DNA from: Branchiostoma floridae
Lineage: Eukaryota > Chordata > Leptocardii > Amphioxiformes > Branchiostomatidae
Direction of reading: 5' to 3'
Assembly (NCBI RefSeq): GCF_000003815.2
Contig: NC_049981.1
Span: 26,653,392-26,717,391, forward strand
DNA length: 64,000 bases
Position numbers and translations under genes: made by a program
Notes under the pieces: model-generated
What the model was told of the DNA's origin: nothing
Database searches by the model: none
What the model saw: the letters and a program-made list of their open reading frames with translations, nothing else
Part shown: positions 9,540 to 60,356 of the stretch, piece after piece
How positions within the stretch are numbered: the first letter of the stretch is position 1
Layout of the letters: every line of letters starts with the position of its first letter

Positions 9540-12500
9540 CTAACTCCTAGTGCTGAAGTATATGGTGAGCGCAATGACTAGGATAATAACTGCAATGACC
9601 ACGAACAGCACTATTCGATTCTGGATTATTCTGGAAAAACAAAAGAAAAAGACTTCAATGTAAATATACTATGGATCAAAATTGTACAAATGTTCTTCTA
9701 CACTCTAGATCTATAATACAGTCTAGGCTAGAGAGAAGGAAGCTAGAGGAGTTTCATTGTAGAATTAAGGCTATTGACATCAGGATTTGAGCTACTTTTT
9801 CTGCTATTCAAAGATACTACATGTACTGGTACTGCAAAGAACACAAGGTATTTTTCTGCCACTACTGGCTGTACCTAATCCTGGTTTTAGCATGAACCAG
9901 TGAAAGTAGACATCAGAAATGCCTGCACAATTGCAATTTACCTGCATGTGCAGGTGGCATTTTGTTCCTTTGCAAACCTGTTCAGAGATACTTTTCCCAA
10001 AGATGACTTCAGGACATAGTAACTTTTCAGGTAACATGTTTCCATACAATCTGCAGATATACTATATTCAAACCTTGTTGGGTTGGTGTCTTCTAAAACA
10101 AAAGATTCTTGGCGTCTGTGGATCAATTAGGACCGAGTCCATAGTGTGTCAATACTTCCATATTCATCAAGGATGTGTGTGAAAGTCAAAGAGACACGAG
10201 GTTTGCTTACCTACCTTCTCATCATGGCTGACAGGATACGTGAACTCTTGCCCAGGTCGCTGTCAGTCTCGCGCAACTACAAACGAACATTGCAAAAGGA
10301 AAAAAAAAAACTTAACTACATACTAGTCCAAAACACAACAGCAATGAAAGTAGTGTACTAGAATCACCATGGAAGCACATATTTGCAGTGTCATGATTTT
10401 ACAGCAGACAGGTAACTATGGCAAAATGAAAAAAACTGTTCTGAACATTTCCAGATTTACAGTATAAACTAACATTCAATGTCAACACAATGGTCACATA
10501 GTTTTTCAGAGTGTCAAATATGTGTGAATCTGTGCTCTTAAGAAATGGCTACAAACCAACATTGTACTGTTTGTTACATTTGACAGTAAAAGGCTACAAC
10601 TCACCCGGTCTCTTGACCTCTGTATTTTCTCCCTGTCCTGATGAAGGTTTTCTAATATATCGGCTCCAACTTGTTCTGTACAGAACAATTTTCACAGGAA
10701 AAGCAGTTAGTATTTTTTACATCTGTCAGTTTTACCAACAAAAAGGAAAACACTACACACACACACAAACACACACTGCTCTACATGTATGAACAAGCTC
10801 CAAAGTTAGGAACAACTTGTGCTTTGACCACTGAAAACTGGGATTACTCTTTTTTTAAAGAAAATTAAAGTGTGGCTTTTATTCTTTTACAATCAGTGTG
10901 AACACACCAGCCAGTTTGGAAACTTGCAAAAAAACATTGTGACTACATGTCATTGCAAAACATTTACTACCCATGTGCCAATAAAACTTTTATGGCTTTT
11001 CAAAATACAAGTAAGTTTCTTCTTCATGATCAGACTTGGTGTTGGGTTCACTGTGACATCATAATTGGATAACCTCAAGTCTGAAGAATGATTGTTTTGA
11101 TGGCATGATGTTCCTGTGCTGTTCAACCACATAACGTTACAATCACTGTTTCCCACAAACCCTACCAGAACCAGAACCTTCCTCGTGAAGGTTCTAATGC
11201 TGAGAAATGTGAGCTGTACATCCGTACCTGTCTCTACTGCCATCCTGTATCCAGCCTCCAGCTTTCTACCAGACCTCTCCAACCTCTCTGTGTTGTCTAA
11301 CAGTCGTGTTCTCTGCACAAACATGGGCGAAACATTCTTATGTACAAGTTTTAGAGTAGTAAAGACCACAGCAATCAATGATGGCTACTCATAAGAATAC
11401 AAAGTATTAAGATCCAATAATTGTGATAGGAAGAACAGAAACAAGGTTTTCAGTGTTTTAAGTTTGCAGTTCGGTAGTACAGCGGAAATACAATGGAAAA
11501 CATGTCATAATTATGCAGTTGAGTGATCATCGCTAAAATGAAATAAAAAATTCCAGTACATATATTACCTGGTCCTCAGAGTGAGAAGGGTCGTCTGGCC
11601 CCAGCAGTTCTTCTCTACTGCCTGCTCCTCCGTGTAGTTTGGCCTTCTTCTGAGCAAAACATACACCAACACATGTTCAGGCACTAAGAAATCTCCACAA
11701 CAGGATGGCCTACACTACACTCACAGGACTTTATGTTTACAGCACATGTAATAATTACTAATATACAAAATGTACTTGTTGCTAATGTTAGTGTAATTAC
11801 CTTAGGGGAGAGGGTGCCATAGTACCAGAGCTCTAGCCAGCGTCCGTTTTTCCGTCAATTGACAGAAATTTGCTGCGTGTGACGGAAAATTTTTTAAACC
11901 AATCCGTCAACCTTGACGGAAAAAATCTGATAAAAGCTCCTTGGTGGAAGCTACGGGCGGCTTGGAGACGCTGTCCACGGCCGTAAAAGCCACACACTGT
12001 TTGTTTTGCTATTGTTATGATTGTTGACAATGTGTGTCGGTGCCCTTTCGCATACAATAATCTCATTAAAACCGTTTTTTCAAGGTCTCAGTTCACTCCT
12101 GGAATAGTGTTTTTGCGACAATGGGAATTGGCTGAAGGAAAAAAAATTTGAGCTGGCTAGAGCCCTGCATAGTACTAAGTATATTTTGTGCATTGGTCAC
12201 ATCCCCACATCTCACAACCAAAAAAAAGAATAACAGAATTCTACGGCATAGAAATCTTGTACAGAAAGAAAAGGTTGGATAATACAATGTATCATCAAAC
12301 TCCAGAAGGTAGATGCATCTCAAAAGAAAAAGTGTCAGCATACTTACTGGGTTTGTATAAATAGGACAAGCAGCAAAGGAGGCAATAAACAAGTTGTGAA
12401 CATTATTGAAAGTAAAGGAAAGTATTTTGACTTATGATATTTTATATTAAAACAGGGGCTCTATGACTAAAAAAAACTTCTTGTTTCTTTTACTACTTAA

Positions 12501-14364
12501 GCCTGACACAACTACACACACACAATATAGCAAAATCAGTCAGCCTCGTTTGATACCTGTTTTCAACATACAAATAACCAAAACAATGGAGATTCAACTT
12601 AGAATTCAAACATATAAGTCCTTTCAAGACCTGCAAAAGTGAGTGTTCATCCAAACTGCCCAAAGATATGGTTAAATTAAAACATGATGAAAAGTACACA
12701 TACGCTTCATGTGGTACTTGTCACACTCTGACACAAACAGGCTAACATACATGCACATTCTAGCAAACCAATCACCTAACGTCCTAACTAAATGCCTGTA
12801 TTACAATAAAGTTATTTTCTTTTCTTTCTGTAAATAGAAGACAACAGAGAAAGCGTCTTCTCGAATATGTCTGATAGATAAAAAAACAAAAGGATGCATG
12901 GTGGAACAAAGCAGTCCCAGCAAAGCAGATTCTTACAAAGTCCTTCTCCAGTTTGCCCAGCTCTGTCTTGTAGCTCTTGAGTCTTGTGGCATACTTCTGC
13001 CTCTCCTTAGACGGGATGTCTCGAACTTCCAGATCCATCTGTTCTAACTATGTGTCACAAGACAACAAGAAGAAGAAAATTAAACACTGTTTTTTAGTTT
13101 GGGTGGCTGGATAATCATAAAAGTCTCCAGAAATGTAATGGAAATAAGTTCAACTTACCAGTTCTTTTGCCTCTTCCATCTGCTTTTCCACATTGGTGAC
13201 CATGTGTCTCTTTTCACCTATCACATGTAACAGGACACACACAAAAATTATCAACTAGATAATTCACAGAATTTCAACTTGTTCCTCTTTGCACTGTACC
13301 TTTAGTTACAATTGAATATACCTCCAACTGATTGGAACAGGGCTACTGGGGAAGTAGTCAGCAGCAGATGAATGAATCATTCAAGAGTCAACTAAAACAA
13401 CATTTAGGCCACCTGATGTATAGTAGTAAGCACACAGGAAGCAAGTAGACTAGTCCACATCAGGTACTACCTTACATGACTGAAGATGGTATGCATGTAT
13501 GTTTTGATTTGGTTTCAAAACACTGATTTCTGACATGAAAAGTTAACATGAAAGTAAAGGCTTATTTCAATCAGCCTTTGAAAGCTAAGCTGGGAGAAGA
13601 CCTGTAGCGCAACTGATGGTTAATACTTCTTTTCATAAACGTGACTGAGTTCAGAAATTCCTTAGGACTAACGTCCTAAAACTGGAGATGCAAGATATCA
13701 AATAATAATGAATTTTAAAGACAACAATTCACTAACAATAAAAGTCGTGACAACAAATCATCAATACTAAATGAGTCCCCAATGCATCACTCCCTCACTG
13801 TTGCATATCTAAGTCAACATCTTCAGTTGCCTAATTTTGCACCAAGCAACCACTATTTACGAAATGGGCCAGGGTTACAAAAAGACACAACGCGGTACGT
13901 TCGTAAAAAAAAGACACACCCCTTTATAATTTATTGGGGTCTTACCAACGAATTGAATGTAATGCTAATACACATTCAACCGTCAGTGTACTAAAAAAGT
14001 AACGCATAAAAGGAATATGAAAGGCTAATGAATGGCTTACAAAATCTGCCTCCTATGACAACGCACAAGTATATCCATGACTAACGTTAACAAATTTGTA
14101 TCAGGCACGGGCGCCCTGGATCAATATTTTGACAGCTCATCTCACTCTTAGTCTTACAAACGTGGTGGTCAGCTTTGGCAATTTGAAACCTGTGACAAAC
14201 CAAGAAACTACAGCTACAGAAGACCGTAAATACCATTTTAGCACAGCCTAACTATTCCTCTTACACTTACCACCAGATAATTTGACAATTTTGGCGATTT
14301 TGTTGGTAATTTCGGCGGTGACATTGCTGTACTGCTGCTCGTAAGAATCGAGAAGAGAAGCCAT
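9540..14364 (-). CDS. VTI1A: VTI1A, Qb-SNARE for Golgi/endosome vesicle fusion
   Basis: Eight coding exons in phase give 217 residues, the same length as human VTI1A: 14271-14364, 13159-13217, 12937-13047, 11569-11649, 11228-11312, 10605-10675, 10215-10276, 9540-9630. All introns are GT-AG. The N-terminal Habc region (about residues 1-90) starts MASLLDSYEQQ and includes 'EQMDLEVRDIPS'. The middle is the variable linker ending SEDQ. The SNARE motif runs from about 120 ('LLDNTERLER', 'LEAGYRMAVETE') through 'ENLHQDREKIQR' to 'LGKSSRILSAM'. The C-terminal anchor is a hydrophobic helix (about 188-212) ending YFSTRS. By known family function it is a tail-anchored Qb-SNARE of TGN and early-endosome complexes with syntaxin partners. 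The residue aligned to the ionic zero layer appears to be Asp (HQDRE), as in vertebrate VTI1A, rather than Gln. It lies head-to-head with RPL34. An intron carries a hAT-type MITE. Confidence 0.96.
11826..12167. mobile_element. hAT-type MITE in VTI1A intron, 342 bp
   Basis: The ends are inverted repeats CAGAGCTCTAGCCAGC (left) and the complement of CAGGGCTCTAGCCAGC (right), 15 of 16 matching. They are flanked by a perfect 8-bp target-site duplication CATAGTAC (11818-11825 and 12168-12175). An 8-bp duplication with CAGGG termini is the hAT superfamily signature. The interior has repeated CCGTCAA/TTGACGGA inverted motifs and no transposase, so it is non-autonomous. It sits between the VTI1A exons at 11569-11649 and 12937-13047. 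Confidence 0.9.
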
Positions 14365-14630
14365 CTTGTTTTCTTCCAGCACTAATGAAGGTGGCCGTGG
14401 CAAGTGCCTGGTAAGTGGTACGTGGAGCTTTATATCAAAGTGTAAATACTGACAAAAATGACGGCTGTAAATTAAATAAACATCATTTTTGATAATTCGA
14501 TTGCATGTGGGCCACTCCAGATCCGCATCACGTCAATATTAATATGATAGAAATAGCTGTCTTATTAGGCATTCAAATACTTACATTGAACAGCTTCAAG
14601 TAGTTGGGAAATTACCCAATAGGCTTTGCG
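14365..14630. promoter_or_regulatory. Shared VTI1A/RPL34 bidirectional promoter region
   Basis: Only about 266 bp separate the VTI1A start codon (minus) from the inferred RPL34 transcription start (plus). The gap has no recognisable gene and no TATA box at the expected distance. It contains a CCAAT-like ACCCAAT at about 14613 just before the RPL34 start. Bidirectional promoter use is inferred from geometry. Confidence 0.6.
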
Positions 14631-14656
14631 CTTCCTTTCGCCATTTTGCACCAAAG
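14631..14656 (+). promoter_or_regulatory. RPL34: RPL34 5' UTR exon with TOP motif
   Basis: A pyrimidine-rich CTTCCTTTCG at 14631-14640 fits a ribosomal-protein 5' terminal oligopyrimidine start. It is followed by CAAAG|GTACAG, a good splice donor at 14656/14657. The matching acceptor is TATGACTAG before GTTTCCACCATGG at the start codon (14829). TOP mRNAs are translationally controlled through mTOR/LARP1. The exact start (14631 or 14635) needs 5'-end data. Confidence 0.65.
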
Positions 14657-14828
14657 GTACAGTATCCACATTTGTACCAACGTATAAAATCCACTATAAT
14701 CCGACAGTTTGCCAGATTTTTGTTCCATGAAAATAACAGGATACGTGCAAAAACTGTTGAAGTGTCTTTTAGCCTAAAATTTAGGTGTCTATATGATACT
14801 GATGTTATTTTATGACTAGGTTTCCACC

Positions 14829-18814
<3,986 letters not shown>

Positions 18815-18835
18815 ACAGGACAACAACATGTAGAC

Positions 18836-30368: not shown

Positions 30369-30372
30369 TTAA

Positions 30373-31957: not shown

Positions 31958-31967
31958 GATTTTCCCA

Positions 31968-42700: not shown

Positions 42701-44124
42701 ATTACTGTTTCGCATGCCTAAATGCTCGACAACTTCTCTTTAGTATCAACAGAAACGAGGAAATGCAAATAAAGGCAGAAACTTCGACCATTAATATTAT
42801 CTTCATACCGAGCGGTGTGCGTAGAGGGCGGACAGTGGATTCTGTCGCTGTGCCGTCTGCTCACCCTAGGGTTTCTCATCCCCACTAACTATCCTGTCCC
42901 AGTTCTGACGGTCTACAGCCATTTCTTTCAGCCCTTTGAGAGTGATTTTATCAGTCTTCCGAGAACTGATTTGTCATCGTACAGTACACAGTTCAGACAG
43001 GTTTCTCTATGCCTGCCTAGGGTTCGGTTTCCATTCTTTAAGTAGTCGTTCCTTGGGCATTCGCCATAAAGTCGGTTTGCCGAGGCGATGTTTACCATGT
43101 TTGCCGGAACATCTCTGTTTCTTGCCTGCTGTTGTGTCTAGTTCACCCTTACAAATACCACGTTTTATTGCAGTCCCATGCCTCATTTTTTTTTCTATCC
43201 AGGGATACTGTTGAATTATGGCGTATGTCAATGAGAGGGATATTGAAATGAATTAATGAATGATTTTGTTTTTTAAAACGCCGTAGCTGGTGGAATGAAT
43301 TGCGTTATACTTACAACGAGTCAAACTTCAAACACATCTCCCTTGGCATAAATTAGTAAAGTCATCGGGACTAAAAATAACTTTGCTAATGAATTTTGAG
43401 GGATTAAACGTTGCGTCAAAGATTGGAACAGCTTCCGTCATAAAGTTTGTCAGCCATACGCTGATTGATAACATGCCAACAAATACTTACATAATTGTGT
43501 GACACACATAATTGTGGACAACTTAATGGATGACAAAGACTAAGAAGTAATGAGGACAATGAAGAATCTATGTTCTGAGACTCCCTACATTCTACACCAA
43601 TGAAATCTCACATATTTCATCTTACAAATGAATTGAAGCTCATGAAGAAGTTTTGTCTAGAGTATTAAATTTTTAAACCTCAAAATGCGATCAAAAAGTT
43701 ACAAAACGTGCTGAGCTTTTGTGTGCTATCCCAGTGCAACATTCTGAAATGCCACATTCATGGCTAAATGCTGTTGTAGAAAGTCTCGCTTTTTATTGGC
43801 GACGTATTCTATTCATTTTGAATTTCTGTTATGTGGTCCATATTGTTAACAAGTCTTGATGTACGCTGTATTTGAGATTTTTGCCATCAGAAGAGACAAT
43901 CTGAAGATCAACTTTTTGGCCTGACATCCTCAGTTTGCATAACACAATGTTTGACGTCTTTTTGTTCCAGGGGTCAAAGATTGTGCACTATGTGTACAGC
44001 GTAGGTCTAAACGTGAACCAGTATCCGACCGCACAGCTAGGTGACACTAGTAAATTTTATTAGGGCAACATTGTGATCAATTTACCCCAAGGTAGCGAAG
44101 TTGCTTTTGTTGCTTGTGCGCCGA
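39713..44124. other. Noncoding stretch with decayed repeats
   Basis: No supported gene. Around 40024-40440 the sequence starts with a CAGTTCAGTTCAATTTTATT motif and resembles the 3' end of an old interspersed repeat on the minus strand. A candidate exon at 40701-40789 has acceptor TTTTGTTCAG and donor GACTG|GTATGA, open in two frames. An imperfect hairpin (GGGACCGA..TCGGTCCC) lies at 41877-41942 around an inner CACTTTG/CAAAGTG pair. The remainder shows nothing recognisable. Confidence 0.4.
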
Positions 44125-44490
44125 AATACTGTAAATGCAGAAATGTTCGCGGTGGTCTCACATTCGCGGTTTTCGCCTTGGCCACTTCACCGCGAACTTA
44201 AAACCCACCGCGAACATTTATCCTTTATAGTTTTTGACAAGTCTTTGGCGCTACCGCGAACTTAAAACCACAGCAAAAACCCCATTTTCCCGCTAATGCG
44301 ATATTCAATCTCCGGTCTGATTTATTTTCGCGGAGACCATATTTCGCGTTGTAAGAGGAAAGAGGGCCGTTTTCACGGTATCCCAAATTCGCTATTTAAA
44401 CTAACTCTGTAGTGCATTATTGATAAAATGCATTTTCGTGATACCCGGAATTCGCGGTAAGCGTAAGAGGCTATCGCGAAAATAAAACCT
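44125..44490. repeat. CGCGAA-type interspersed repeat, copy 1
   Basis: Begins ACTGTAAATGCAGAAATGTT, then TTCGCGGTGG, then ACCGCGAACTTAAAACC twice, then further TTCGCGG and TCGCGAA motifs. The inverted CGCGAA motifs make it self-complementary. The same core recurs at 45560-45720. I recall this type as widespread in marine invertebrate genomes. Confidence 0.75.
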
Positions 44491-45510
44491 CCACCATTAT
44501 CATTTCAAGGTGCATTGCGATGTCACGAAACAAGGGAAATTTTAATGAGACTAAACCGGGAATATGTTGAATAATCTTAAGAACGATTAGATGACCCATT
44601 TCACCCATACCTTCCCTATTTTGGGGGAGGCCAATGGGAGTGAATGAATAATACAAAAGTCAGATGAAAATTCATTTTACATGTAAATGACCAATTGATT
44701 TTAGTTACAAAGTGAGTAAAGAATGATAATAGTAAATCATAAAACAGCCAACCAATGTTTTACCATTGACAATGTTTTACCATTTGACAAACATAATACA
44801 TGGTAAAAGTCACTGCCACAATCGGTTTTTTTTGGGGGGGGGATCACTTAATAAAAGAACAAACAAAAAGCCGCAAAAACTCGTAAATATAAACCGGTGT
44901 GACCAAGGAGCTTTTATATAAGTATGCATACATTAGCCCCACAGCGAGCGTTACGTTACATTGTCATTCCCGATGATATTACACCCGTTACGTTTCGACA
45001 GCCATGTGTATAACATGCCCACTGTTTAACATGCACCGATCATTGGAATGGGGGGGGGGGGGGATGGGTGTCGTACCAATATCGATTTACACCGATTTCT
45101 TTGACATGTGCCCATGCATGAGCAAAGGGACGACAAATTTGCTAATGATAGGCTATCCTCTACCAGACTCCTTGGTGGGAAAAAATAGTAGGTCAAATGG
45201 ACTGTACACTTTGTTTTGCCAAATGAGTAAGACAGACATAGATTTGAACATACTGTAGTAAAGTCCAGAAGAAAAATGTATTGGGCCAATGGCCATCATA
45301 TTCCTGCAAGGTAGTCTGGTAGTAGTTTTCTGGTAGCAGAAAACTGGCGGCAACTAAATGTAAGAATCGTCACAGAGTCTTTTAAACTTTAGATCGCTTG
45401 CCACGCAACTTGTAGCTGGAAGCCAGACTGCTCCCCGGGCTAACACAGGCTCTGGAGGATCTCACCAGTAAATTTCCCGACTACTATTACTATACATGCA
45501 GAAAATTTCG
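44491..45510. other. Noncoding stretch between CGCGAA-type repeats
   Basis: No gene seen. A run of 14 G lies at 45050-45063 and a shorter G run near 44829-44841. Confidence 0.45.
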
Positions 45511-45559
45511 CTTGGTTTGGTTTATTTGGTAAACCAAACCAAACCAAACCAAACCAAAC
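45511..45559. repeat. AAACC tandem-repeat hairpin
   Basis: GGTTTGGTTTATTTGG pairs with the following tandem AAACC units. The hairpin lies between two TTTCGC copies at the start of the CGCGAA-type repeat, as if it expanded or inserted there. Confidence 0.7.
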
Positions 45560-45720
45560 TTTCGCGGTGGTTTAATGTTCGCGGATTTCGCGGTGGCTGC
45601 TCAATTAATGCGAACTTAACGAGCATTTTTTTCATGGCAGTAAGAGACTACAGTGCATGGAGCTACCGCGAACTTAAAACCACCGCGAAAAGTCCTTTTC
45701 CTGCTACCGCAATCACTGCT
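45560..45720. repeat. CGCGAA-type interspersed repeat, copy 2
   Basis: TTTCGCGGTGGTTTAATGTT, a central section, then ACCGCGAACTTAAAACCACC and GCGAA followed by TTTTCCTGCTACCGC. The order is the same as in copy 1. Confidence 0.8.
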
Positions 45721-46039
45721 TGGAGAGTAGGCCTAGGGTCTAACTCATGTAGCCTGGCTACCATCCTATTAAGTTTACTTAGGCTCCCGTACTCGCCCTC
45801 TATCTTGTGATGTCGAGTGAATGTGAGAGGCCCTGTGAACTACATGCATTATTCCATTGCCACACTCACAGGGACATTGTATTAAATTGGGCATCATGTC
45901 CTTGGTTTTAGAAAGTGTTACACTAAATTTAGAAAGTATGAAAACAACGTTAACAGATCGAGATGACACCACACCACCGCCGGCCCCGAGCCTGTTGGGG
46001 ACAAGAAGAAGATTATTCGGTCACCGTCGGCCGTACACG

Positions 46040-46053
46040 GTTACCATGGCAAC
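46040..46053 (+). promoter_or_regulatory. RFX X-box-like motif
   Basis: GTTACCATGGCAAC fits the RFX consensus GTNRCC-N(0-3)-RGYAAC and is nearly palindromic. Related motifs occur at 47967-47980 and 48808-48821. Confidence 0.5.
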
Positions 46054-46743
46054 TTCACCAACGGGGCCGGAGGCAGGGATGGAAAATGTGGTTCTCGTTA
46101 TTTATATATATATATAATGTTATATATATAATGTTATCTTTTATAAGATGACTGCATGTAGACAGCATATTATTTCGTGGCCGCGGTAGTGTAGTGTGAA
46201 TACATGTATGGCTACAGCAAGTAAGTTTTGTGGATGACATCAGCGCGCCCATTAATTTTTTGCCCGATTTCAGAAAGAAAAAAACGAATTTTTTTCGTCT
46301 CCGGGGACGGTCAGATAGACCAAAATAGGCAAACGTTGTGTTGTGACCTAATAATCATACTTGCAGAACTTACACTAGGGAGGTAGCCATGACTGTAGTT
46401 GCAGAAGTGAAACTTGTTGGGTAGTTGTAAAAGTGCCACCAATATGGAAGCCATGACTGTAGTTACCAGCTTGGCAATTATACAAGTGTACCACACTATT
46501 ATCACTGCGTTGTTAGTTGTGATGCCACATTTTGTCACTTCAAATCTTGTTACGACGTTTACGGCGTCTATTTTGAAAATTTAGCCATCTTGTTTTTTTT
46601 CTACCCATCTTGTTTTTGTTGTTGTTCCTATATCTTATTATTTTTGCACTCATTCTGGATAGGTTGTCATCCATAGAATTTATTTGCTGTGGCCTATTTG
46701 AGAAAAGAAAGTAGCCTCCTACCAGACTTACCGACTGTAGACT

Positions 46744-46877
46744 CTACCAGGCTTCGTGGATCGGTGGTCTAATTGTAGAAATTGGACAAATAGAATCTAT
46801 AGTACGATAGGGGAGTTAGCCGGCCAGAAGGGTACGTGGTGAGGATAGTGATTCTATCGATCCACGGAGCCTGGTAG
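46744..46877. mobile_element. Small inverted-repeat (MITE-like) element
   Basis: CTACCAGGCTTCGTGGATCG at 46744-46763 is the inverted complement of 46858-46877, 19 of 20 bases, with a 94-bp centre. CTACCAGACTTACCGACTG just to the left echoes the right-hand ..GTAGAGGCTAACCGACTGG, so the true ends may lie slightly further out. Confidence 0.6.
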
Positions 46878-47495
46878 AGGCTAACCGACTGGCAAAGCGT
46901 AGGGTTTTTTTTTTCAGATTATTTCATTATTTGTCAGTTCTGGATTGTACAAAAGGTTTTCTTGTTGTTACGACCGAGAGTTGGACAATGCAGAACATAC
47001 AATCAGAAAACAGCATATGTAATGAGCGATAAAAAAGAAGCCAAGTTGTGCGCCTGCTCGTGAGGCTACAGGGGTGGCGATGTGTGCGTAAAGTCGCCGG
47101 TGGGTGACCACGCCTCTGGTGGCGCCACTACTCTGTCTCCGTGTCCGAGCTAATCTGTCATGTCGCGCTCGCCTCCCGACCCCCGGGGCCTGTTCCCCGC
47201 CAACACGCTCTCTCCAGCTCCAGTAATATATAATCAACTGTCGAAAAGCGCGCCCTTCCACTACACAGCTACTAACAGCGATACATACATGTCAACGGTT
47301 ATTCCAGCTAAATTTTCATCAGTTTCATTTGCTGTGAGGTTAGACGGCTTTAGAATCCTGTTCGAGCTGACCTCTGCGGATCACCGACCCGGAAGCAAAT
47401 TGGAACCCCGTATTATTTAATATATGGCACGTGGCGTCCCTAAATTGATTTCCAAATATGGGCACACAAAGGAGCCGGCCTGTTTCTGCGGCGCG

Positions 47496-47505
47496 AGATC
47501 AAAGG
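47496..47505 (+). promoter_or_regulatory. TCF/LEF binding motif
   Basis: AGATCAAAGG, the optimal TCF/LEF HMG-box site used in Wnt reporters. One of two identical copies 297 bp apart. Confidence 0.55.
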
Positions 47506-47784
47506 GACCGACAACCACACCCCCGGCCGGGGCAAACCACACCTCCTCTGAGGGTTACATTCAGCCTGAATTTTTCTACGTTTCCTAAAAGCCAAATAGG
47601 CGTAAATCCGCGCAGATTTCTCGGAGAGACCGTGTCTGTTCCGCGGTTGGAAATCGACATAGACGATCGGGACTCCGCGTCAGTTTCCGAGTGCCTTCTC
47701 CGATCGATTTCACCGCCGGCGTTAATACTTCGGGGAGGATTTGTGGCGAATTGGCGGACACAGCAAGCACGGCGCACCATCTCC

Positions 47785-47802
47785 CGGCGGCAAGATCAAA
47801 GG
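47785..47802 (+). promoter_or_regulatory. TCF motif with adjacent helper-type site
   Basis: CGGCGGC at 47785-47791 matches the complement of the GCCGCCR helper site bound by the C-clamp of invertebrate TCFs. It is followed immediately by AGATCAAAGG at 47793-47802. The pair is the bipartite arrangement known for C-clamp TCF targets. Confidence 0.5.
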
Positions 47803-48350
47803 AATGCAAGCAAACAAAGCCGCTATCATCTGGTAATGGCCATTGAGTTTTCTATCACTACCCCCTTTCGTGAATATTTGCACACTGAATCCAATACGAT
47901 GTTATTGTGGTTAAAAAATGGCTTCTAATTCGGCATGTCAGCCGCTTTTTATCTGTGAAAGGGTTAGTTACTATGGCAACGTAGATGTCGGCGCCTTTTA
48001 CGCTCAACTAACAAACGCAATTGTTTGTGGCGAATCGTAAAAACTATCTGACCCGACAAACAGCTCGGGTTTGGTGGTGGTGGGGCCAGTTGTTAACATT
48101 TTGAACAGACTAATTTTGGTGGTAAGTGTTGAAAATGTATTCGGTAGTGTTGAGTGCTGTGGGCATGAAGCCGCGCGTTTCCTCGGTCCCCTCGCTGCCC
48201 AGGTGAAGGCAGATGCTGCCCAGATTGCGCGTATCCGGGACACAGATATAATGTCCCCACAAGGGGCAGTGGGGGCTCAGGACTCATCATGTGTCCGTGG
48301 TAGCAATCGTAATTCCTTCTATTCATCCTCAGATAAGAAAAACGTAGTGT

Positions 48351-51300
48351 AATATTGTAGACTTACTAGAACACCAAGAAGACGTTTAGGCGACATTGTT
48401 TTCTTGCTATCTAAAATGTATTTTATTAAGAAAGTCTAAGACCAGGTTTCTATGACAGCAGCTGTAGATATGTGATTCTTTTCAGTAACATTGTATATAC
48501 AACAAAGAATGGGCCACAGAGTAGTTTTGCTTTCAGTATCGTGGTTTTCTTTTTTATCTTAAGATCAAGGTAAAGACAAGTTAAGTATAAAATGAGAGGT
48601 AAATAAAGAAAGGAGTCCTGGAGGATAGTATGAGCCATACCACATTACCAGCCAAATTAAATCTCAAGTGGTAACAGCCAGTCGTGTTTTTTAAGATCTT
48701 CTCCATATTTTGAATGTAGTCCTCTCATCATTTTCAGCCTATAGCTATAGCGCCAGTCCCTCGCAGTGCTTGTTGTGTTCTGATGCGACTAACAATATTG
48801 TTATGCCGTTCCCATGGCAATAGTTGATGATTTGCATATATTTCTTTGATGTTACCGATATTGCGCTTTTACCGGCATGCGTCTCCACCTTCTCGTCCGC
48901 AGAATTTCTCCAAAACTCCAAAAGCTATATGCGAATTTCTGAAAACCTACACATATCAACGTGATCCTATTTAACTATGGGGGGGGGGGGGGGGGGTAAT
49001 TTTAATACAATGTATAGAGTTTTGGGCACACATGTCTTTTCTAAGTCGTCAAGGGTTATATTTGCGGGGTTACGTTTTCGCAACTTTTTCTTTTGCTACA
49101 GCTTCTCGCCTTAAATTTTCACGTTACCTCTGCGGCAGGATTTACTTCTCTTGATTTGACCCCATTTCCAGGGGCACTCAGTAGTGTGCAACATATTTTT
49201 CACACAAAAACAACTCACACAACTTTGTACACGACATCTCGGAAAATCTGTTGAACTGGTTTAATCTCTGCTGCATCCCCCACTATTCTGAAACAGACGT
49301 CATTTCTACCAACTTTCTTTGATATGGCTTCACCCTGGTTAGACCCAGGGCTACTGTTACAAAGGCGCGCACTTTTAAGGATTCAGTAAAATATCGCCAA
49401 CCTTATGAAATTTCAGTTTGCCAGATTCTGTTTCGGGTAGGAATATTAAAGGTGACTCCTGCTTCAGAATGTAGAATGCAGTTCGTTTTGAACAGATCTA
49501 ACGATGCGACTCTACACAAATCTGTCCATGCTTTTGCGATTACAATATCTTCATGATGAATAAATGAATAACCTAATATCATTTTGTCTTAAAGTTGATA
49601 ATACTCTCTTGATTATTGTACAATTTTCTTGTATGTAAATCAGATGCGAGAGCAAGTGGGTTTGTATCCTCAGTGAGCAGTGAGGCGGGTGTAATTCGCG
49701 CTAAGCTGTTGTTTGCGAAATCACCATGTCTGACAAATTTGAGCCAGGTTTCCCGGCCGGTAATGTGGAACCTATCAGTCCTGGCGGCAGACTAGCGGCG
49801 ACGTCCTACCACGGGCGCCTGTACCAAGGCTGCCGCACACCTCTAACACATACCCTGCACTAAAATTCTAAACCATCATTAACCATGCTCGGGGAGTTGC
49901 TGGCGTTAGTTTTTTCGTGGCTCCTCCGGTACCCAGGGGAGTGATAGCTAGAGAGAGGCACGGTGCAGTGCATCTCCCTTTGGTCCGGATACCGTATGCA
50001 GAACCCAGTGGCGAATCTTTTAATAATTGATGTTTTAGGAAATATATATTTTTTGTTTCAAACTCATTTCTGTTGTTTTTGTCCCCTAAAAATAAAACCA
50101 CATTATTGGCACCCATTGTACATGGGAGCTGTGCGTCCAGAAAGCGCGTCCGCCAAGGTTTACGACAATCGCTTATACTTTTGATATAGCTTCAATATTA
50201 ATTTTAATCGCTTTATATATATTACGTTGAGTAGGTTAGTCAAGGATTGAAACTTGGCCGTCTGTAACAAGGGTTGAAGCCCACAGAAATGATTGTAACA
50301 GATTGAAATTGCGGCAGATACTTTGTATTAAGACAGTTCTATTGTGAATATTGAGAAAAACGCGTTGCATGCAGGCCTATTTCTCAGACCACCACCAATG
50401 TGAAGGAGACCTGATCTACATTTAAGGATTTTTATTGGGGTGTACTTGAGGGATGTGTATGTCATGAGTGTGTGGATTGTGTGGGCAAATATTAAATGAA
50501 GCGGGGGTATTTTTTTTACGGGCGCGTTTTTGCAGAGCAAGCTCCGTGGTATCGAAGGCGAGGGTTGTTTCTCTGTCAACCACCTGTAAAACAACAAGAA
50601 AACTTTGGTCAGAAGGGGAGGGGAAGAGGATCTATGACCACAGGAGCGCAATCCTCGGCAAGGGTCCCTTCTTGAATTATTAAATACATGTTCTGGCCAA
50701 CATCGCTATTTAAAACACCCATTCAACTACCAAGGCCGACCTTTGTTCATCCAAGTTCAATCAGGTTCAGTCTCTTTACATTCGTCTCGTCGTGGCGATA
50801 CCGTAAAGTGGTTTACAAAGTATTAAAGATGGCTTGTCTTGGAGTCCGTAAAGGTTGACCAACACGTTATAGACTCTACTCGACCTTCAATCCTTGATGT
50901 AAGTCGCTGTATGTCTGAACAGTGCGATCACGTTCCTAGTTCATTCACGGACTAACCATATAAAGGTGTCTTCCTGAACCCAACGATCGACACAAAACGT
51001 AATAAGACATGAAAAGTCTTAAGAAAACTGCACGTGCATATGAAACAACAAATCATAAAATATGTTATTGCTGAAGTTTTCGGAAAGGTGGCACTGTATT
51101 ATTATATTGACCTGAACTAAAATCATTGAAGCATGCATGCCTCAAACACGCCGCCTCGGTGCCCTTCTGTTCACTTGTAGTAATGCAGTAATACTCTAAG
51201 ATGATCCGCGGTTTGATCAAATTAATGCTTGAAAAGATCTGTGCAATCATACTCCTATTGTACCAGAGGAAGAGTTCTGTAGAACGCTGTCTCAAATCTG

Positions 51301-54300
51301 ACGTGGCCCATATGACACCTGAACACGATTTGCTCGGCGATTGTTCCCGATGATTACGGATTACCAGAGAAGCCTTCTTGTCTTTTGTTCGGTGATAATA
51401 GCCTTTAGTGTTTTGTCCGCTTGTGAATGCCGATGTTACAAGTGGTGTATAAATACACGATGGGCACAGATGTGGATTATTGTGGAGGTAGTGAGAAAGC
51501 TTTCACGGAAGAAGAGCGGTGCGGGTAATGCCGCTAAGTCATTGCTACAATACATTGCCACAAACTTTGAACGCTCTACACTGTACCCAAGCAAATCACC
51601 ACACTTTTCAGACTTTTCAGAGAACCCTTTTCTATTTTCGGAGCAACCTTTTCGTATGTCCGAACCCACGTGCGCTCTTTTCTCATCAAGTCTATACACT
51701 CTATACACTGAGTACTAGTATTGTACACACGTAGCTGTAGCTGTGATATGATGACGTCTTGCCGTGTTGATAGCAAGACGCGGACAGCCATCCCCAAAAC
51801 CGCGGGAGCCACATGAATACCGCGACAAAAGGATCATTGTTTTGCGACCACAATCTTTTCCTTGGTATCGGTGCCCACGCATATCATGGCGCGCTGGCCA
51901 ACTATGATTTCATACCCAGGCGAAAACCAATTTTCCCCAGCCTGGTCCCAGATGATGGTTTGGGTCTCCTTTCCGAGAGACATCATTAACACGGAGATGC
52001 GACCTTAATGCAGGGTTTGGTCCCTTAAGATCAGCGCAGTTGCAGCTTGTGCCTGTGCAAACTCCTGACCTCTAGATGTCCCCGTCGACTTAAGTTCATT
52101 TTGGCATGCTGAAGTTCATTGCTGGCCGCCATATTTGGTAATCCCTAGGCACTGTTTTTAGTCCAACTGAAAAGCTTCTCTGCGTGTGGCAGGAGAGACG
52201 TGAACAGGTGACCGACATTTGCGCTTGACCTACCACCAAACAAGCAATGCAGTTTATCAGACACTGTGTTTTAGCGATTTTCCACAAGTTTGAAATTTGA
52301 TAAGCTTTAGTGACTAAAATTGCGTCCGTGGTCTTCTTCACCATCAGGTTTGAAATACGTTAGTAACATTTCTGGACAATTGAAAAGATGACGGCTTCTA
52401 TACAGTTAGTGTCGATATCAACGGACTTTTTTTCTGAATCTCTTGTCTTTTTTGCACAAATCGGCTTTGAAGCGTTTACAACCTATGGTAAAACGGAAAA
52501 CAATGGTCATTCGTAACCCCTTCTGCTTATCATATAAGACAAAAAGTAAGATGTCAGATGTTTCATCGGTAGTGCATGTACATCAAATTTGAAGATATGA
52601 AAAGTCTTTCAAATTCAATTGAATTTTGTCTATTCTTTTTTAGCTGAAAGCTTCAGAGTTTTTCTTGTTGCATTTTACGATATAGCTCATTTCTGAGCTC
52701 GCCTGGTAATATGACGCTGAAATAATTCGAACGGCTATAAGATAATTTTATACCGGTTGATGATTAAATTTAGATAGACTTGTTTATTTTTTATCATGTC
52801 ATGAGTAAAAAAAGCGGGAGACTACTAGAACCATATGCTAGTACACCACCAGTGAACTAAAATAAACATTCTAACCCTGGGTACGAACTTCACAATTTTC
52901 AAACGGTGTTCAAACGCAGAAAGAAATTTCATCCGAACAAACTTGTCTTGGTTGTACCCCAGACCCAGACCTCCCCACCCCGCAAAAATGCACGTCCATT
53001 GAGTTTCTTATCATTCTTGTTGCTCGCAAGGTATTTTGAACGCAGTTTTCAATTTAGATCGTATTGTCGTTATGCACATGCAGAAATGTCTTGTGCTTTG
53101 TTTTCGGTATTATTTTACACATTTACAACGATATGCTAAATGTAGTTCAGACGTCAGACAGGCGATAGAATGTGTGTAAACATTTTGAACGCAAACTGAT
53201 AAATTTGGCTTTTTTGACAACTTTTCCCTCTGACTCTGAGGGATCACTCTGCTTTCTATCATTGAACTTCTTTCACAGACACATTGCCAGTACCATCTTT
53301 GGATTAAGACATCGTCTCATACATTTATCGTTGGAAACCCCAAAAAATAACCCTTTAGATGGTTTTCGTCACGCCTACACGTAATGGTGCTAACGCCCAC
53401 GTGTCAATTGGATTTCATCTCATCATGTTTCCATATTTGTGAAGGTGCAGATCTTCATTCTTTTGAAGTTCTCCGATTAAATGTACATGTAATCCACAAT
53501 GTTTATTTGATGAGAATTCGACTATTTGTGGACATTCCGTTTGATATTAACCACCGTTCACGGTTCAGTGATTCCCATATGCCTGCCAAAAGACAAGTTA
53601 GTGAGCATCGGGAAATACACGGAGAAACCATGGTTTGTCTAGAAAAACATTGGAAAAACCACTGCTGGTAATAGTTGTCATATTTCTTACTTTTAGTGAA
53701 AAAGATTATTTATATGTTCACATGTATCATCGTGACATGTGCATATGGTAACCACAGACAGTGATGAATATCACCTCTCTAATCATAACTTATGACATTT
53801 TGTCTAAGATATGACAAACTGTTAATCAGCTGAGATCAATGCATTGACATTTTACATTACTTGAACAATCGTAAATTGCTGAAAAACCGTAAATCAGAAC
53901 AAGATTGTGAATGATCACATTTAAATTTAATGATGTCGATGACTATTTCAAGTTCTCTCTTATGTGGACTTGAGGACAAAGTCTTTCCTCGGTTACCTAT
54001 ATGTTTTGTTTGTGCGTTCATTCTTTTGTCGTATATGTATATCTAATCAAAGATGTGGTTGTTATGATTATATCATTTTACGCGCGTATTTCGCTTATTG
54101 CAAAAGTCATATTCATTTGTGAGCGGACCAAACCATACATGATACCAGCAAATCCTCAGCCCAGCCGTCCAATTAGAAAACATGTAATTTTCAGCGAAAT
54201 GACCAAGGGACATTAATAGACTGGTCTGAATTTGATGGCGTTGAAAACTAGTATTGATCGCTGTCCGCCCAAATCACAATTATTAGCCTCCCTCATTTTT

Positions 54301-55408
54301 CAACACCGTGCATTTTCGACGGTCGATAGTTAGGGCTTATCATCAAGCAAGGCGGCAATAAAAAAGATGTAGACATAATTCCCTAGATTTATAGTAGTCA
54401 TGTAGTTTGGGCACAAGCTGTAATTATATCAGGAGGGTGGCTAATGATTTATACATCTTTATCATGTGTGTGGTTTTACTGTATATTACTGTATCTACAA
54501 GCTTTAGTTTTTTTTTACATAACACTATGTTTATCCTTTTTTCGGGCACGATGCGAAGTTACCTTTCCATGATGATCCATGGCCTGGTAAGGATGTTAGT
54601 TGCGCATGTGTCTTAGAGTGAATTTTATATTGTTATGTCTCTTAATTCAAAAGCAATAACAACTTCTACATGTATAATTTAAAGATGCTTAGCCGCTTCT
54701 TACGGTTTTATGACAAACTACATAAATAGTAAAGAAATGACTAAATGATTATATTTTATGTTGAGGATTCATGTTACATCTGTTGTGAGACAATAACATA
54801 AAAACGTGGTGTAGCCTGTACCCTGTGACATTTCATCGAGTCCAGCTAAGATTATGACGCAAATACAATAAAATCATCAAAGTTTATGGCAGTAAAGTAA
54901 TACAGACATTGAGGTTAGTCAACGTTGATTTTATTGGAGATGGGTTCAAGAAAACACATTACATAACTTTCAAGCTTTTAAACTTTATTGCTTAATCAAC
55001 ATTGCAGTCCCTTTACATCACTCAAATTCTGCTCTGTAAAACACTGCGATGTATTGAAAATTCAAACATCATAAAACAATATGCCTATGGTAGCTTGAAC
55101 CGGCGTAGTCATGACAATGTCTTCGTCAATATTTATGATGCATTCGCCCTCATTGCACCTCAGTTCGCAGTACACGGAGTCACAAAGCTAACAAAACTTC
55201 TGTTTCGCTTGGTAGATACCTGAATGAAAGTGAATCGAGTGAAAGACATTCATTGTACGTTACAAGCTGAGTGTAGGTCGTGGTAATAAAGCAGTACAAT
55301 TGGAATACTACACATTCAATGACTAATGTTTATCAGTATCTGTATGTTTAGGTTATACTAGATATAAATTCACTATTTTAGTCATCTCCGTAGTACGAGT
55401 ACACGTAC
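48351..55408. other. Long noncoding stretch
   Basis: No supported gene. Noted items are an RFX-like GTTCCCATGGCAAT at 48808-48821, a run of 18 G at 48979-48996, and a 45-codon ATG frame at 49726-49863 (MSDKFEPGFPAGN, Kozak TCACCATGT). The other open frames lack coding character, splice support or ATG starts. It could hold regulatory DNA of Tcf/Lef or introns of the minus-strand gene that starts at 55636. Confidence 0.4.
49726..49863 (+). CDS. Possible 45-residue small open reading frame
   Basis: ATG in a usable context (TCACCATGT) opens MSDKFEPGFPAGN and continues through 'VEPISPGGRLAATSYHGRLY' to a TAA. Composition is protein-like and the region is more CpG-rich than its flanks. No family match is recognised. 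It could be a small peptide, an exon fragment or chance. Confidence 0.2.
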   Translation: MSDKFEPGFPAGNVEPISPGGRLAATSYHGRLYQGCRTPLTHTLH

Positions 55409-55636
55409 CTCACCACAGTCAGTGCCCTGTATGATCAACTTCTTCAGTTGTTGAATTGAACCCGCTACTGTCGACTTGACGAAACATGCTGGATTTTCTA
55501 GCCCAGTTTTAAGTGTCAGCAGATCTCCCCAAGTGCCCTCCAAATCCTTCGCCCATCCTGGTAGCATGAATAACTTTTCAAGCGGCAACTCTAGGCAACG
55601 GTGCACGCCATTCATTGTTTTAGCTTTTCCATCCAT
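55409..55636 (-). CDS. Putative first coding exon of an unknown minus-strand gene
   Basis: 76 codons from ATG (MDGKAKTMNGVHRCLELPLE) run to the donor GGTGAG|GTACGT at 55409/55408 in phase 0. An alternative donor GTGAGG lies 5 bases earlier. The peptide looks like a folded domain start ('KLFMLPGWAKDLEG', 'VAGSIQQLKKLIIQG'), Leu-rich with few low-complexity residues. A CCAAT box overlapping an E2F-like site lies 32-43 bases upstream. I do not recognise the family and found no convincing second exon down to 48 kb, so the model is partial. Confidence 0.45.
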
Positions 55637-55667
55637 CGCTAGCTATCTCTGTGGTGTTTTGTTACAG

Positions 55668-55680
55668 TTTGCGCGCCAAT
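55668..55680 (-). promoter_or_regulatory. Overlapping CCAAT box and E2F-like site
   Basis: Plus-strand TTTGCGCGCCAAT holds an E2F-type TTTGCGCGCCAA and a CCAAT box. On the minus strand it lies 32 bases upstream of the start codon at 55636. The combination is typical of cell-cycle-regulated promoters. Binding is inferred. Confidence 0.5.
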
Positions 55681-55683
55681 GGT

Positions 55684-58569
55684 CACTTCCTATGCTGGCT
55701 ATCATTGTCTGCTTTCTTACGTAAAGAATCCACGCATAGAAAGTTACGAGAACGACTATCAATTCAAAGCATCCCAAAGAAATAATTTTCACTAAAAGCT
55801 ACAAGTTAAATTCATACAAAGATTTTTCACTAGTAGTAGTACTGCATTTGTAATTTGTATTTGTAAGTGATGGTTTGACAGTGGTGTGTAACTAGTTAGT
55901 GTAACCTGTAAATGGAGTATGCACGTAAGTTGCAACAGCAAGAAAAACAACATGACTAATCTGTTTGCCACCAATTAACAGCAAATTGTCCAGACTAAAA
56001 CAACTATCATTACCCAAGAAATAATTGCAGGCTACTTTCGTGGGGAAAATGGCAGAATCTGCATAAATCGTAATCATGACATCAACATTATTTCGCGTTT
56101 CTTAGCAAATGCCTTATGGGTAGACGCAATCTTCCACATATCATAAGGACAAAATAAAATTAAATAGATGAATGTAGTTATTGTTATTTTAGCTTTGAAC
56201 TGCTGGACATGTAACAGTAGTTAGCTGACGACATCATTAGTTCTGGAGGACACGCAATGGTATTTATTTCTCGTTACTGCATGATTGCTTCAACAAGTGG
56301 AATGTGCGTGTAGGCGTTGATTTACATTTATCTGTACAGCGGGCCGATTTCGTCTGCATGCCACTACGTTCTTTGTTGTTCTTTTCATGATAGGATTAAT
56401 AAAAACACGTCTCGTATGTAGTAAAATGTTAGCAAATTTGTCAAAGCGTCAGTCGACGAGAGGAGTTATGAACCACTGATTTTTTTCGAGTGAATCGGAG
56501 ATAGAAGATAGAAGATTTGAACAGTTCTCTGATTATTGTGTTGAAGATCATTTTTTCTTCGGCTGAATCAATAAAGAATTTAGACTCTCTCTATACTTTG
56601 TAGATATACTAGATTACAAGGTCCCCCTAACCCGACCAGAAAATATAGACAAGAACCGATAATTGTTTATGTTAGTTCTCGACAGCAAAAAAATTCAACA
56701 ACTTATTTTGAGTGTCGTTCTCTAATGGTCACGTTTCTTTTGGTCATTTTTTCAGCATAGTTAGAGATACAAGTGTGTCGCCCGAAGTATGTGGTTGTCT
56801 GTCTGCACTGGCCAGGTGGTCTGTAATCTGTACCGAAACTGAAACTAGACTTCTGAAATTTGTAGAAAACGGTAAAATACTTTGCTTAACTCCTTGGTAA
56901 TTCATTCTAACTTTTTGGGCAGATTTTAAAACCTGTTTTCCCAGTACTAGTAGAAAGGAGACAAGGCTGTAGCCGTAGAGACGACTTGTTAACCAGGGGG
57001 TCGGGATAAACCGGTCTGGAGGTGTCAAGGAAAAACTCCCGCCGACTCACACATATGTGCGGATTTACACCACTGAAGCTAGAAAAACAAATACCTACAA
57101 TGATAATTGTCTGGCTCCAGTCTGGGCAACCTTCATTTCTCCTAATTACCGTAGCAGTGGAAATGATTTGCATAGGAAGAAGTACAAGTCTCGTCTGAAC
57201 GTCGTGACCGGTACTCAATTTTCGCAGGCAATACTGTATAATTATACTTTTAGACATCGTATGACTTTTGCACTGATTGTTCCTTGCAGTAAATTCTATA
57301 AAACTTTAAAAGTACAAACATGTATAAACAGTGTGTGAAGTGATAATGACCTTAAACTCTTTATTCCTGTGATAAGCGCCTTCAAAAAAAAATGCTGCAC
57401 AGGAAACTTTCATTTTGGTCTCCTACCACATAGGTTTCGAATTGATGACTTCCCACACAAGCTCGCAGCATAGATTGCTGGTCAGTTATACACTGAAATT
57501 GCGCACGTGCGCATATGCCAAACCTAACTTGCGTCAAATATTGAGATAAGCAAACTTTGAAAGTAACACTGGCAAGGAAAAGATCTTGGTGTGTAGTATT
57601 AGTAGGCCATGAAAAGTCTTGCTGTACATGTGTGCCTGTAGAAAATTGGTTCTGGTGCGGGGCATGCACTAGATCGTGTGGTGAAAATATACATAACATC
57701 AAACCTTAATGGCAAATTTTTCCTCTTGAAAAGACGTTGTAGTCGCTTCTATTGAAATTTTACATAACTTCTGAAATGAATCTTTCGCCATCCTGTCGAC
57801 ATGTTTACATAATAATTCAATAAAGAGGACAGTAAATAAAATCCTTGCAACCCAGTCATCAAACAATGTGGTAAAATGAAATTTATGGAGTAAGATGTGA
57901 TTTATCATCACGGTTGAGTGGAATTCTATGGGACCCGTCTGTACAACTACATTACTGTAAAGCTTCCGCGGTCCATATAAATATCATTACTGTCCATGGT
58001 GCTCAATAGAAATATAAATTGGCACCATCATGTGTCAATTCCAACGATGATGTGTTTTTATCATGGCGAATCTAACAATGCGAACGTCCGCTGTTTCATG
58101 ATTTTTGGAATGAAATGAAATGTAAAGACTATATTTCCTATATAGCTGTTTTTAGCTGAAAGAAAATTATATCAAAAGATTCAAAAATATGTCATTGAAT
58201 GACAATGGTTACGTAGATGTTCCTTCGTTACAACAGAGAATGAAATGACAGCCTTTTTTTACTTGAGTCGTAGAGCTATGGCTTTAAACATGTTTGGCAA
58301 GTTATCTTAAACTTAGGAACGATTTTTCAGACTTAACGACAACCAGTATTGCTTTTTGAGCCAACAGTAATATAACATGTACCAAAATCTATGGCCACAT
58401 TGTATTTTTTACTGTCCAGCATTTCAACAAAGTCCATTGAAATATGATGAAGACGATTTCCTATATCTTCTTATTGCTTCGTTACTGTTTATAAATAGAA
58501 TATCGATTTTTCGTGTTTTTTTTATGAGAAAGGGTGTGCGCGTTTGTGCCACTGGTTTGGCTACGCCGC
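55684..58569. other. Intergenic stretch upstream of Tcf/Lef
   Basis: AT-rich sequence with no supported exon, RNA gene or mobile element. It separates the divergent minus-strand exon at 55636 from the Tcf/Lef promoter. Confidence 0.5.
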
Positions 58570-59418
58570 GTCGGTCTTTTTAGCCGACCTGTTTTGTAAA
58601 CTGTAGGCGGCAAAACACGAACCGCCCACCGGGAAAAGGGCGGGAAGAGGCCGTGGTGCGCGGTTACTCACTGGTCAGAAACCCTGGGCACGCTGATTAG
58701 TAGTCTGACGTCACCGTAGTAATTAATTAACAAATTCGGCCCAGCCCTCGTCATTCGCATTTCATTATAGCAAGATTGACAGCTGGGCGAAGGGACCTGT
58801 CAATCACCCAAGCGATCAAGGGTGCGGCGCGGGCTTTGATGTTTTAGGGACTGAGCGTTCATACCGTACGAGGTTTTCTCTGAAACGGTTTTTGCTGTGT
58901 ACAATTATATATAAGATAGTAGCATACTATTACACATAGATTACTGTATCTTGCATTTTTATTTTACTGTTAAAAAGTATCAAATTTGGAGGATTTATCG
59001 GTGGACAAAGTTTGTGCATCACCCCCGCTATAGTTAACGGTTGCCCCCGTGTTCCCTTTGCAAAACGCCGCCGCAGAGACTACAACCAAGTTGTGTTCAT
59101 TTCTGTGTCAATTTCTAACGTGCTGGCTAAAACTACAGCCCCGATCAAGACTCTATTTTGGGACAGGGTAAGTCGTGAACAATTATAGAAACTATATTCC
59201 TAACCTAGACAGAGTTTGTGGTAGAAATCCGTGTTGTAAGATCGATAGTTTGGCGCCCATCGCGAAGTTGTGTTCGTTTGTGTCGGTTGGGATGAACACA
59301 ACTTGGGTGCCGCGTGGTCGGTGGCGATGATAGCCGCAGCTCTCTGATCAACTGTCTTTTCCCAGGGCACTTCGTCAAACCAGGGGCGGCCAGGCCAGCA
59401 GGTCACCACCGAGCGACA
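58570..59418 (+). promoter_or_regulatory. TCF7L2: Tcf/Lef promoter and 5' leader
   Basis: A CpG-rich region directly upstream of the Tcf/Lef start codon. It holds GGGAAAAGGGCGGGAAG (GC-box/E2F-like), a CRE TGACGTCA at 58706-58713, TAATTAATTAAC (homeodomain-type), a 9-bp inverted repeat GATTGACAG/CTGTCAATC at 58774-58782 and 58797-58805 (TGACAG, Meis/TGIF-like), and a TCF-type site GCTTTGAT at 58833-58840 that could allow autoregulation. The transcription start is not resolved. Confidence 0.55.
59088..59304. repeat. 11-mer AAGTTGTGTTC, three copies
   Basis: AAGTTGTGTTC occurs at 59088-59098 and 59265-59275, and inverted (GAACACAACTT) at 59294-59304. The last two can form an 11-bp stem with an 18-nt loop in what is probably the Tcf/Lef 5' UTR. 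Confidence 0.75.
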
Positions 59419-60356
59419 ATGCCGCAGCTCAACGGTAGTGGCGGCGACGATCTAGGGGCGAGCGACGAGACAATCTCCTTCAAAGACGAGGGGGAGCAAG
59501 AAGAAAAATCGGCTGAAAACGTCTCTAACGACCTCAGCGATATCAAGTCCAGTTTAGTCAACGAGTCGGAAAGTTCTCAGAGCGGCGCGGTACCTTCAGA
59601 GGTGAGTTTGTTGTGATACAGTATATACCTGACCTTCTGAGGATGTCAGGAAAGTCTTTGCTGTGGTTTCTTTTTGACTAAAGCGTGCACGAGGAAGGGA
59701 TCTGACGGAATGTTTCTCTCCCCCCTCCCCGACTACAGGGTTCCAAGCCACCGTTGCAAAGTTATCCCAGGGAGGACTCCAGAAGAGGGGACGAAGGTTT
59801 GTTACGGTTTAAGTCTATCCTACAGGCAAATAGAGTTACGATATTTCACGATCTGTAACGCACGGTATCCCAAGATTCAAGGGAAATTACATAGATGTCT
59901 TGTTTTAAGGGTTAAGACGCGCTCTGAGACTTGTTTGGAGTTTTGGTAGGATTTGTTGCGATAGTTGAGTTGGCCGAGCACCCCCCACCCGGGCCCTTCT
60001 CAGAAGACTGGCGAGGACTCCGACTCACATTTAACACTCTAGATACAAACAACTGCTAAGGATTAAGCCAGGAAACCAAATATATGTTGTACTGTTCAGA
60101 AACGGTTAACTTTGTCTCCCTAACTTGGATTTCCTGTATAGTTTGTTGACTAAAGGATGTCATAGTTCGCCGGTTCGGCGCCCCCCTCCCCACTCAAGTC
60201 AGACCAAGTTTCTCGTACCGCCAACTTGCAGGAAGCAAAGCAGAGAGTGTACCAGTCGTCAGCCGGGGACCAGCATATCTTACTCCTGGTGGAGTTATAG
60301 TTTCCAATATGGGCGTCTACCCACATCCAAATGGCTCTTTAGCGGCCAGTGCAACG
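59419..60356 (+). CDS. TCF7L2: Tcf/Lef transcription factor, N-terminal exons (partial)
   Basis: Three exons in phase: 59419-59601, 59739-59796, 60232-60356. They encode the first 122 residues; the gene continues past the window. The start [17 protein letters not shown] is the hallmark of the TCF/LEF beta-catenin-binding domain. '[13 protein letters not shown]' and '[12 protein letters not shown]' contain the acidic contacts to beta-catenin armadillo repeats, including the conserved DEGEQEE. Exons 2-3 ([19 protein letters not shown], then '[14 protein letters not shown]' and '[12 protein letters not shown]') match the TCF7L2 segment ending PNGSLSPTAR. The HMG box and C-clamp are not in view. 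It is the nuclear effector of Wnt/beta-catenin signalling, partnering Groucho when Wnt is off. Exon 2 uses a weak donor (GAAG|GTTTGT). Probably the single ancestral Tcf/Lef rather than a strict TCF7L2 ortholog. Confidence 0.95.

Follow-up and report, generated by a model that had tools for sequence, protein, structure and literature searches.

A VTI1A-RPL34-Tcf/Lef neighbourhood in amphioxus that probably predates the vertebrate genome duplications

The four vertebrate TCF/LEF genes have been traced to one linkage group, CLGQ, through 2R, and in the published scenario TCF7L2 and LEF1 fall on different post-1R branches, the ancestral vertebrate gene being viewed as TCF7L2-like (Torres-Aguila et al. 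2022, PMC9303524). Comparisons of amphioxus with other lineages are reported to show largely scrambled gene order within linkage groups (Simakov et al.). The mammalian surroundings of two of the four genes are given in published gene lists, which we took as map order. The human 10q list runs ACSL5, ZDHHC6, VTI1A, two noncoding entries, TCF7L2, HABP2, NRAP and CASP7 (PMC4880969), while a list for cattle chromosome 6 runs COL25A1, ETNPPL, OSTC, RPL34, LEF1 and HADH (PMC8299338); human RPL34 is placed at 4q25. According to a review, TCF7L2 lies ~131 kb downstream of VTI1A. Human VTI1A is described as upstream of TCF7L2 and directed towards it, and diabetes- and tumour-risk-linked variants have been reported within TCF7L2 as well as in the VTI1A-TCF7L2 region (PMC3349716, a review).

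Here we analysed an amphioxus window, that is, a whole stretch of DNA of 64,000 nucleotides (C3:26653392-26717391, inside a 34.2-Mb contig). The original prediction had placed VTI1A, RPL34 and the 5′ exons of Tcf/Lef within 51 kb of this window, and the reconstructed exons, Pfam domains and structure matches confirmed it. VTI1A, RPL34 and Tcf/Lef are thus found together in a non-duplicated relative of the vertebrates.

Gene content of the amphioxus window

Five genes were recognisable in the window, in the order VTI1A (-), RPL34 (+), a GT29 sialyltransferase gene (+), a C2H2 zinc-finger gene (+) and the start of Tcf/Lef (+). VTI1A is therefore directed away from Tcf/Lef and RPL34 towards it. 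The features were as follows.

9540..14364, minus strand: VTI1A (v-SNARE), complete coding region, 8 coding exons, 217 aa, open frame
14364-14271, 13217-13159, 13047-12937, 11649-11569, 11312-11228, 10675-10605, 10276-10215, 9630-9540, minus strand: VTI1A coding exons
14365..14828, no strand: VTI1A-RPL34 intergenic stretch, 464 bp, candidate shared bidirectional promoter
14829..18814, plus strand: RPL34 (eL34), complete coding region, 5 coding exons, 118 aa, open frame
14829-14893, 15090-15103, 15636-15715, 17879-17982, 18721-18814, plus strand: RPL34 coding exons
15090-15103, plus strand: RPL34 microexon of 14 bases, codes ..SKTP.., required for frame
26089..28779 (about), plus strand: GT29 sialyltransferase gene, six coding exons recognised, 5′ end and exon 4/5 junction provisional
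33022-33205, 33506-34868, plus strand: last two coding exons of the C2H2 zinc-finger gene, bounds from splice signals, 5′ end not located
34869..59418, no strand: 24.5-kb stretch directly 5′ of Tcf/Lef
59419-59601, plus strand: Tcf/Lef exon with start codon and beta-catenin binding domain (Pfam CTNNB1_binding)
59739-59796, plus strand: second coding exon of Tcf/Lef
60232-60356, plus strand: third coding exon of Tcf/Lef, PNGSL motif

The VTI1A reading had GT-AG borders in seven out of seven introns, and its protein matched Pfam V-SNARE (2.8e-27) and V-SNARE_C (3.3e-20). Among six solved-structure matches the top two were both VTI1A (3.9e-31 and 5.9e-30), followed by the weaker 'VTI1-like 1' (2.2e-9) and then by yeast VTI1 and two VTI1B structures (4.5e-4 to 9.7e-4, with VTI1B at 7.5e-4 and 9.7e-4).

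RPL34 likewise presented GT-AG borders in all four introns and a Ribosomal_L34e domain (1.4e-38). Its 14-base microexon sits between introns of 196 and 532 bases, and skipping it would break the frame. A reading of RPL34 as a broken gene, with the frame lost between exons 1 and 2, was rejected, since the microexon restores the frame and this is the sole L34e found. A microexon was also sought in three VTI1A introns and none of that form was present. Searched in six frames, the whole genome (513.4 Mb, 431 contigs) returned three L34e matches, two of them exceeding the cut-off; all three were exons of this RPL34, and no other L34e gene was found. Most zinc-ribbon cysteines are lost across 15636-17982, where CGDS and SGKA stand in place of two CxxC motifs when the protein is compared with four solved L34e proteins that had alignments, of 63 matched. 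A single-copy eukaryotic eL34 without the zinc site looks unusual.

VTI1A and RPL34 lie head to head on opposite strands with start codons 464 bp apart, and because of this divergent spacing a shared promoter for both genes is plausible. Inspection by eye of the 464-bp stretch revealed a 5′TOP-like CTTCCTTTC near 14631 and a possible 5′UTR intron of RPL34.

Tcf/Lef begins 40.6 kb past RPL34. Its N terminus matched CTNNB1_binding at 4.3e-22, with TCF7L2 as the best structure chain (4.3e-19), then a TCF3 domain (9.7e-16) and LEF1 (1.2e-8). This N terminus thus appears nearer to TCF7L2 than to LEF1, in line with the TCF7L2-like ancestor proposed in PMC9303524. The later exons lie outside the window, at 90-109 kb on the window scale, and complete the domain set of beta-catenin binding domain, HMG box and C-clamp.

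100593 and 103343, window scale, outside window: two Tcf/Lef HMG-box exons, HMG match at C3:26754032
106174-106296, window scale, outside window: Tcf/Lef exon holding both NLS and CRARF
108686, window scale, outside window: remainder of the Tcf/Lef C-clamp

The fusion of NLS and CRARF in one exon has been described as a cephalochordate feature (Torres-Aguila et al. 2022, PMC9303524), and the gene found here carries both in a single exon, which marks it as a cephalochordate Tcf/Lef and supports the assignment to amphioxus.

The sialyltransferase and the C2H2 zinc-finger gene, which the original prediction did not include, separate RPL34 from Tcf/Lef. The former matched Pfam Glyco_transf_29 at 1.4e-36 on the raw frame and at 4.1e-56 on the spliced reading, and its best structure chains were ST6GalNAc2 (7.8e-35) and then ST3Gal1 (3.5e-31). 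We take ST3GAL5 to lie near human TCF7L1, and kinship of the sialyltransferase with ST3GAL5, if true, would bring a third ohnolog into the block. This relationship was unsupported, as ST6GalNAc2 and then ST3Gal1 matched best among eight chains, a set in which ST3GAL5 itself did not appear. We know of no TCF/LEF link for either intervening gene.

Tandem repeats were also present in this part of the window: an array of a 163-bp unit at 20671-21240, between RPL34 and the sialyltransferase (3.5 copies, 93% matches), and a near-perfect duplication of a 94-bp unit at 29843-30037 (2.1 copies, 99% matches). A six-frame Pfam scan with E up to 1, covering about 1-9503 and 19000-59000, yielded beyond the sialyltransferase and the zinc fingers a single sub-threshold match, retroviral SH3-like (E 0.27), and no Pfam domain in any of the six frames at 34869-58998, 5′ of Tcf/Lef. 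An 85-residue open stretch at 7909-8163 (-) resembled by eye the terminal part of a non-LTR reverse transcriptase and had no Pfam match with E up to 1. Scanning the window for Rfam families at gathering scores and for tRNAs gave no matches. Beyond the window, at -76053 to -70910 on its scale and ~80 kb past the VTI1A 3′ end, lie two exons of a gene for a rhodopsin-like GPCR that by eye resembles neuropeptide receptors.

Comparison with the TCF7L2 and LEF1 neighbourhoods

It had been proposed that human VTI1A adjoins TCF7L2, that RPL34 lies near LEF1, and that TCF7L2 and LEF1 are paralogs from the vertebrate genome duplications. The literature agrees with this: two noncoding entries stand between VTI1A and TCF7L2 in the human list, RPL34 adjoins LEF1 in the cattle list, and both TCF/LEF genes derive from one linkage group via 2R (PMC9303524). 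Since these lists place VTI1A beside TCF7L2 and RPL34 beside LEF1, the two amphioxus neighbours are listed as coding neighbours of separate TCF/LEF ohnologs.

The orientations are not identical to those of the mammalian loci, a correspondence that would be supporting rather than defining. The orientation of VTI1A relative to Tcf/Lef is opposite to the human one. Human RPL34 and LEF1 are presumably divergent, with RPL34, as we understand it, on the 5′ side of LEF1, and on that understanding the orientation of RPL34 relative to Tcf/Lef is also opposite to human. One inversion of the VTI1A-RPL34 unit would reconcile both human orientations, and this reading predicts the pre-duplication order RPL34 (-), VTI1A (+), Tcf/Lef (+). 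The genes of the pair lie on the 5′ side of the TCF/LEF gene in amphioxus and at TCF7L2, and presumably also at LEF1.

Origin of the neighbourhood

Our preferred reading, which we consider probable, is that VTI1A, RPL34 and Tcf/Lef formed a pre-duplication block, followed by reciprocal loss in vertebrates and one inversion of the pair. The chordate ancestor would have carried a divergent VTI1A-RPL34 pair 5′ of a single Tcf/Lef gene, the vertebrate whole-genome duplications would have copied this neighbourhood, and reciprocal gene loss may have left VTI1A at TCF7L2 and RPL34 at LEF1. The pair would have been inverted as a unit in amphioxus or in the pre-duplication vertebrate stem, and the shared candidate promoter would account for both genes staying paired before duplication. 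The genes, their structures and orientations and the single RPL34 were obtained from this genome, and the mammalian neighbours and the 2R origin from papers; the split between 10q25 and 4q25 rests on one invertebrate genome and published mammalian gene lists.

Against the block stand the two intervening genes, the inversion that it needs and the outcome of a search with human queries (E<0.05), in which none of ZDHHC6, OSTC and HADH was found within 100 kb on either side, in flanks that contain gaps and where short exons may have been missed. The two intervening genes and the apparent orientation change show that rearrangement was tolerated. Overall, the interpretation of the original prediction is likely and partly supported. 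The gene identities, the single L34e found, the published mammalian neighbourhoods and the 2R origin are in its favour, but the block is not contiguous, having two genes inside, and its orientations match neither the human TCF7L2 locus directly nor, presumably, the LEF1 one.

A more specific version of this history, in which the duplications halved a bidirectional RPL34-VTI1A promoter 5′ of the ancestral Tcf/Lef, with marks of the lost halves, and Tcf/Lef regulation tethered the pair through a unit inversion, is put forward tentatively. At TCF7L2, VTI1A would have stayed and ZDHHC6 would have taken the place of RPL34; at LEF1, RPL34 would have stayed and RPL34-DT would mark the place of the lost VTI1A. 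We take RPL34-DT to be the divergent noncoding transcript of the human RPL34 promoter, and no paper on it was found among the matches listed in the open-licence literature. The pair would have inverted once as a unit, never leaving Tcf/Lef, as expected under a regulatory tether.

Rather doubtful is an addition to the block explanation whereby the locus is a genomic regulatory block, with candidate Tcf/Lef enhancers in and among VTI1A and RPL34 and breaks selected against. A general model of this kind exists in the literature, and in the human TCF7L2 interval enhancers made up 9 of 13 tested elements, although the study left room for them to act on VTI1A, the gene upstream (PMC3349716). In amphioxus, ~24 kb directly 5′ of Tcf/Lef are without detected coding domains. 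However, the VTI1A-RPL34 pair has apparently changed orientation relative to Tcf/Lef, two genes lie between RPL34 and Tcf/Lef, and a shared bidirectional promoter could alone tie VTI1A to RPL34. The long linkage of these genes may be due to Tcf/Lef regulation acting over long range, or simply to a scarcity of breaks.

We consider it unlikely that the genes shared a linkage group only and were brought close by inversions separately in amphioxus and in vertebrates, with no inherited microsynteny. Such a history agrees with the assignment of Tcf/Lef to the published group CLGQ (PMC9303524), with the scrambled order reported within linkage groups, with the interruption of the block by two other genes and with VTI1A and RPL34 orientations that differ from human. 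However, both genes are immediate coding neighbours in mammals and lie within 51 kb here. Assuming random order in the linkage group, the chance that at least two of four nearby genes directly adjoin any of the four TCF/LEF genes was 0.016 with 150 linked genes, 0.006 with 250 and 0.004 with 300, a rough estimate whose criterion was set after the match was seen; among 20,000 genes it was about 1e-6. When five genes on either side were counted as neighbours, the chance given linkage rose to 0.09-0.29, which favours shared linkage only, and the weight of the argument therefore rests on immediate adjacency. Because order inside linkage groups is reportedly scrambled for the most part, the two kept neighbours exceed what linkage alone would give, at a rough chance of 0.004-0.016, in keeping with the preferred reading of an inherited block. 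Finally, an assembly error that falsely joined separate loci somewhere between 19 and 59 kb is very improbable: the contig is scaffolded, with gaps on both sides of the window (2,296 N directly left of position 1 and 100 N at 64306 on the window scale, to its right), but the window itself holds zero N, its G+C content is nearly even (37-44% across 4-kb bins), and it would be odd for a false join to agree with the mammalian neighbourhoods by chance.

Significance and relation to known systems

If outgroups agree, the inherited block would anchor the vertebrate duplications locally, at a major Wnt effector. It would then also serve as a test case for how promoter-sharing genes are sorted among ohnologs, and would justify a search for Tcf/Lef enhancers within VTI1A and next to RPL34. 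Synteny of TCF/LEF at the level of linkage has already been published (PMC9303524), and the local VTI1A-RPL34-Tcf/Lef order is a new case. No paper on this linkage was found among the matches listed in the open-licence literature.

The TCF/LEF ohnolog neighbourhoods of linkage group Q concern the same gene and the same duplication history, and compare, at the linkage level, the ancestral chordate group with the vertebrate TCF/LEF loci. They differ from the present case in dealing with whole-chromosome gene sets: VTI1 and RPL34 have 0 occurrences in the main text of that paper, and local order near amphioxus Tcf/Lef is not a subject of its sections 3.3, 3.5 and 4.3 (PMC9303524). Genomic regulatory blocks with bystander genes resemble the amphioxus locus in that housekeeping genes are kept beside a developmental regulator, whereas the analysis of the amphioxus locus covered gene content and position. 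Human 10q25 shares with it VTI1A as the upstream neighbour, TCF7L2 being the TCF/LEF gene there; in contrast, human VTI1A points towards TCF7L2 and has ZDHHC6 as its other neighbour, while amphioxus VTI1A points away and is partnered by RPL34. Similarly, at the mammalian RPL34-LEF1 loci (human 4q25, cattle chromosome 6), RPL34 is listed beside LEF1 in cattle. The human genes are presumably divergent there, whereas in amphioxus RPL34 and Tcf/Lef stand in tandem with two genes between them.
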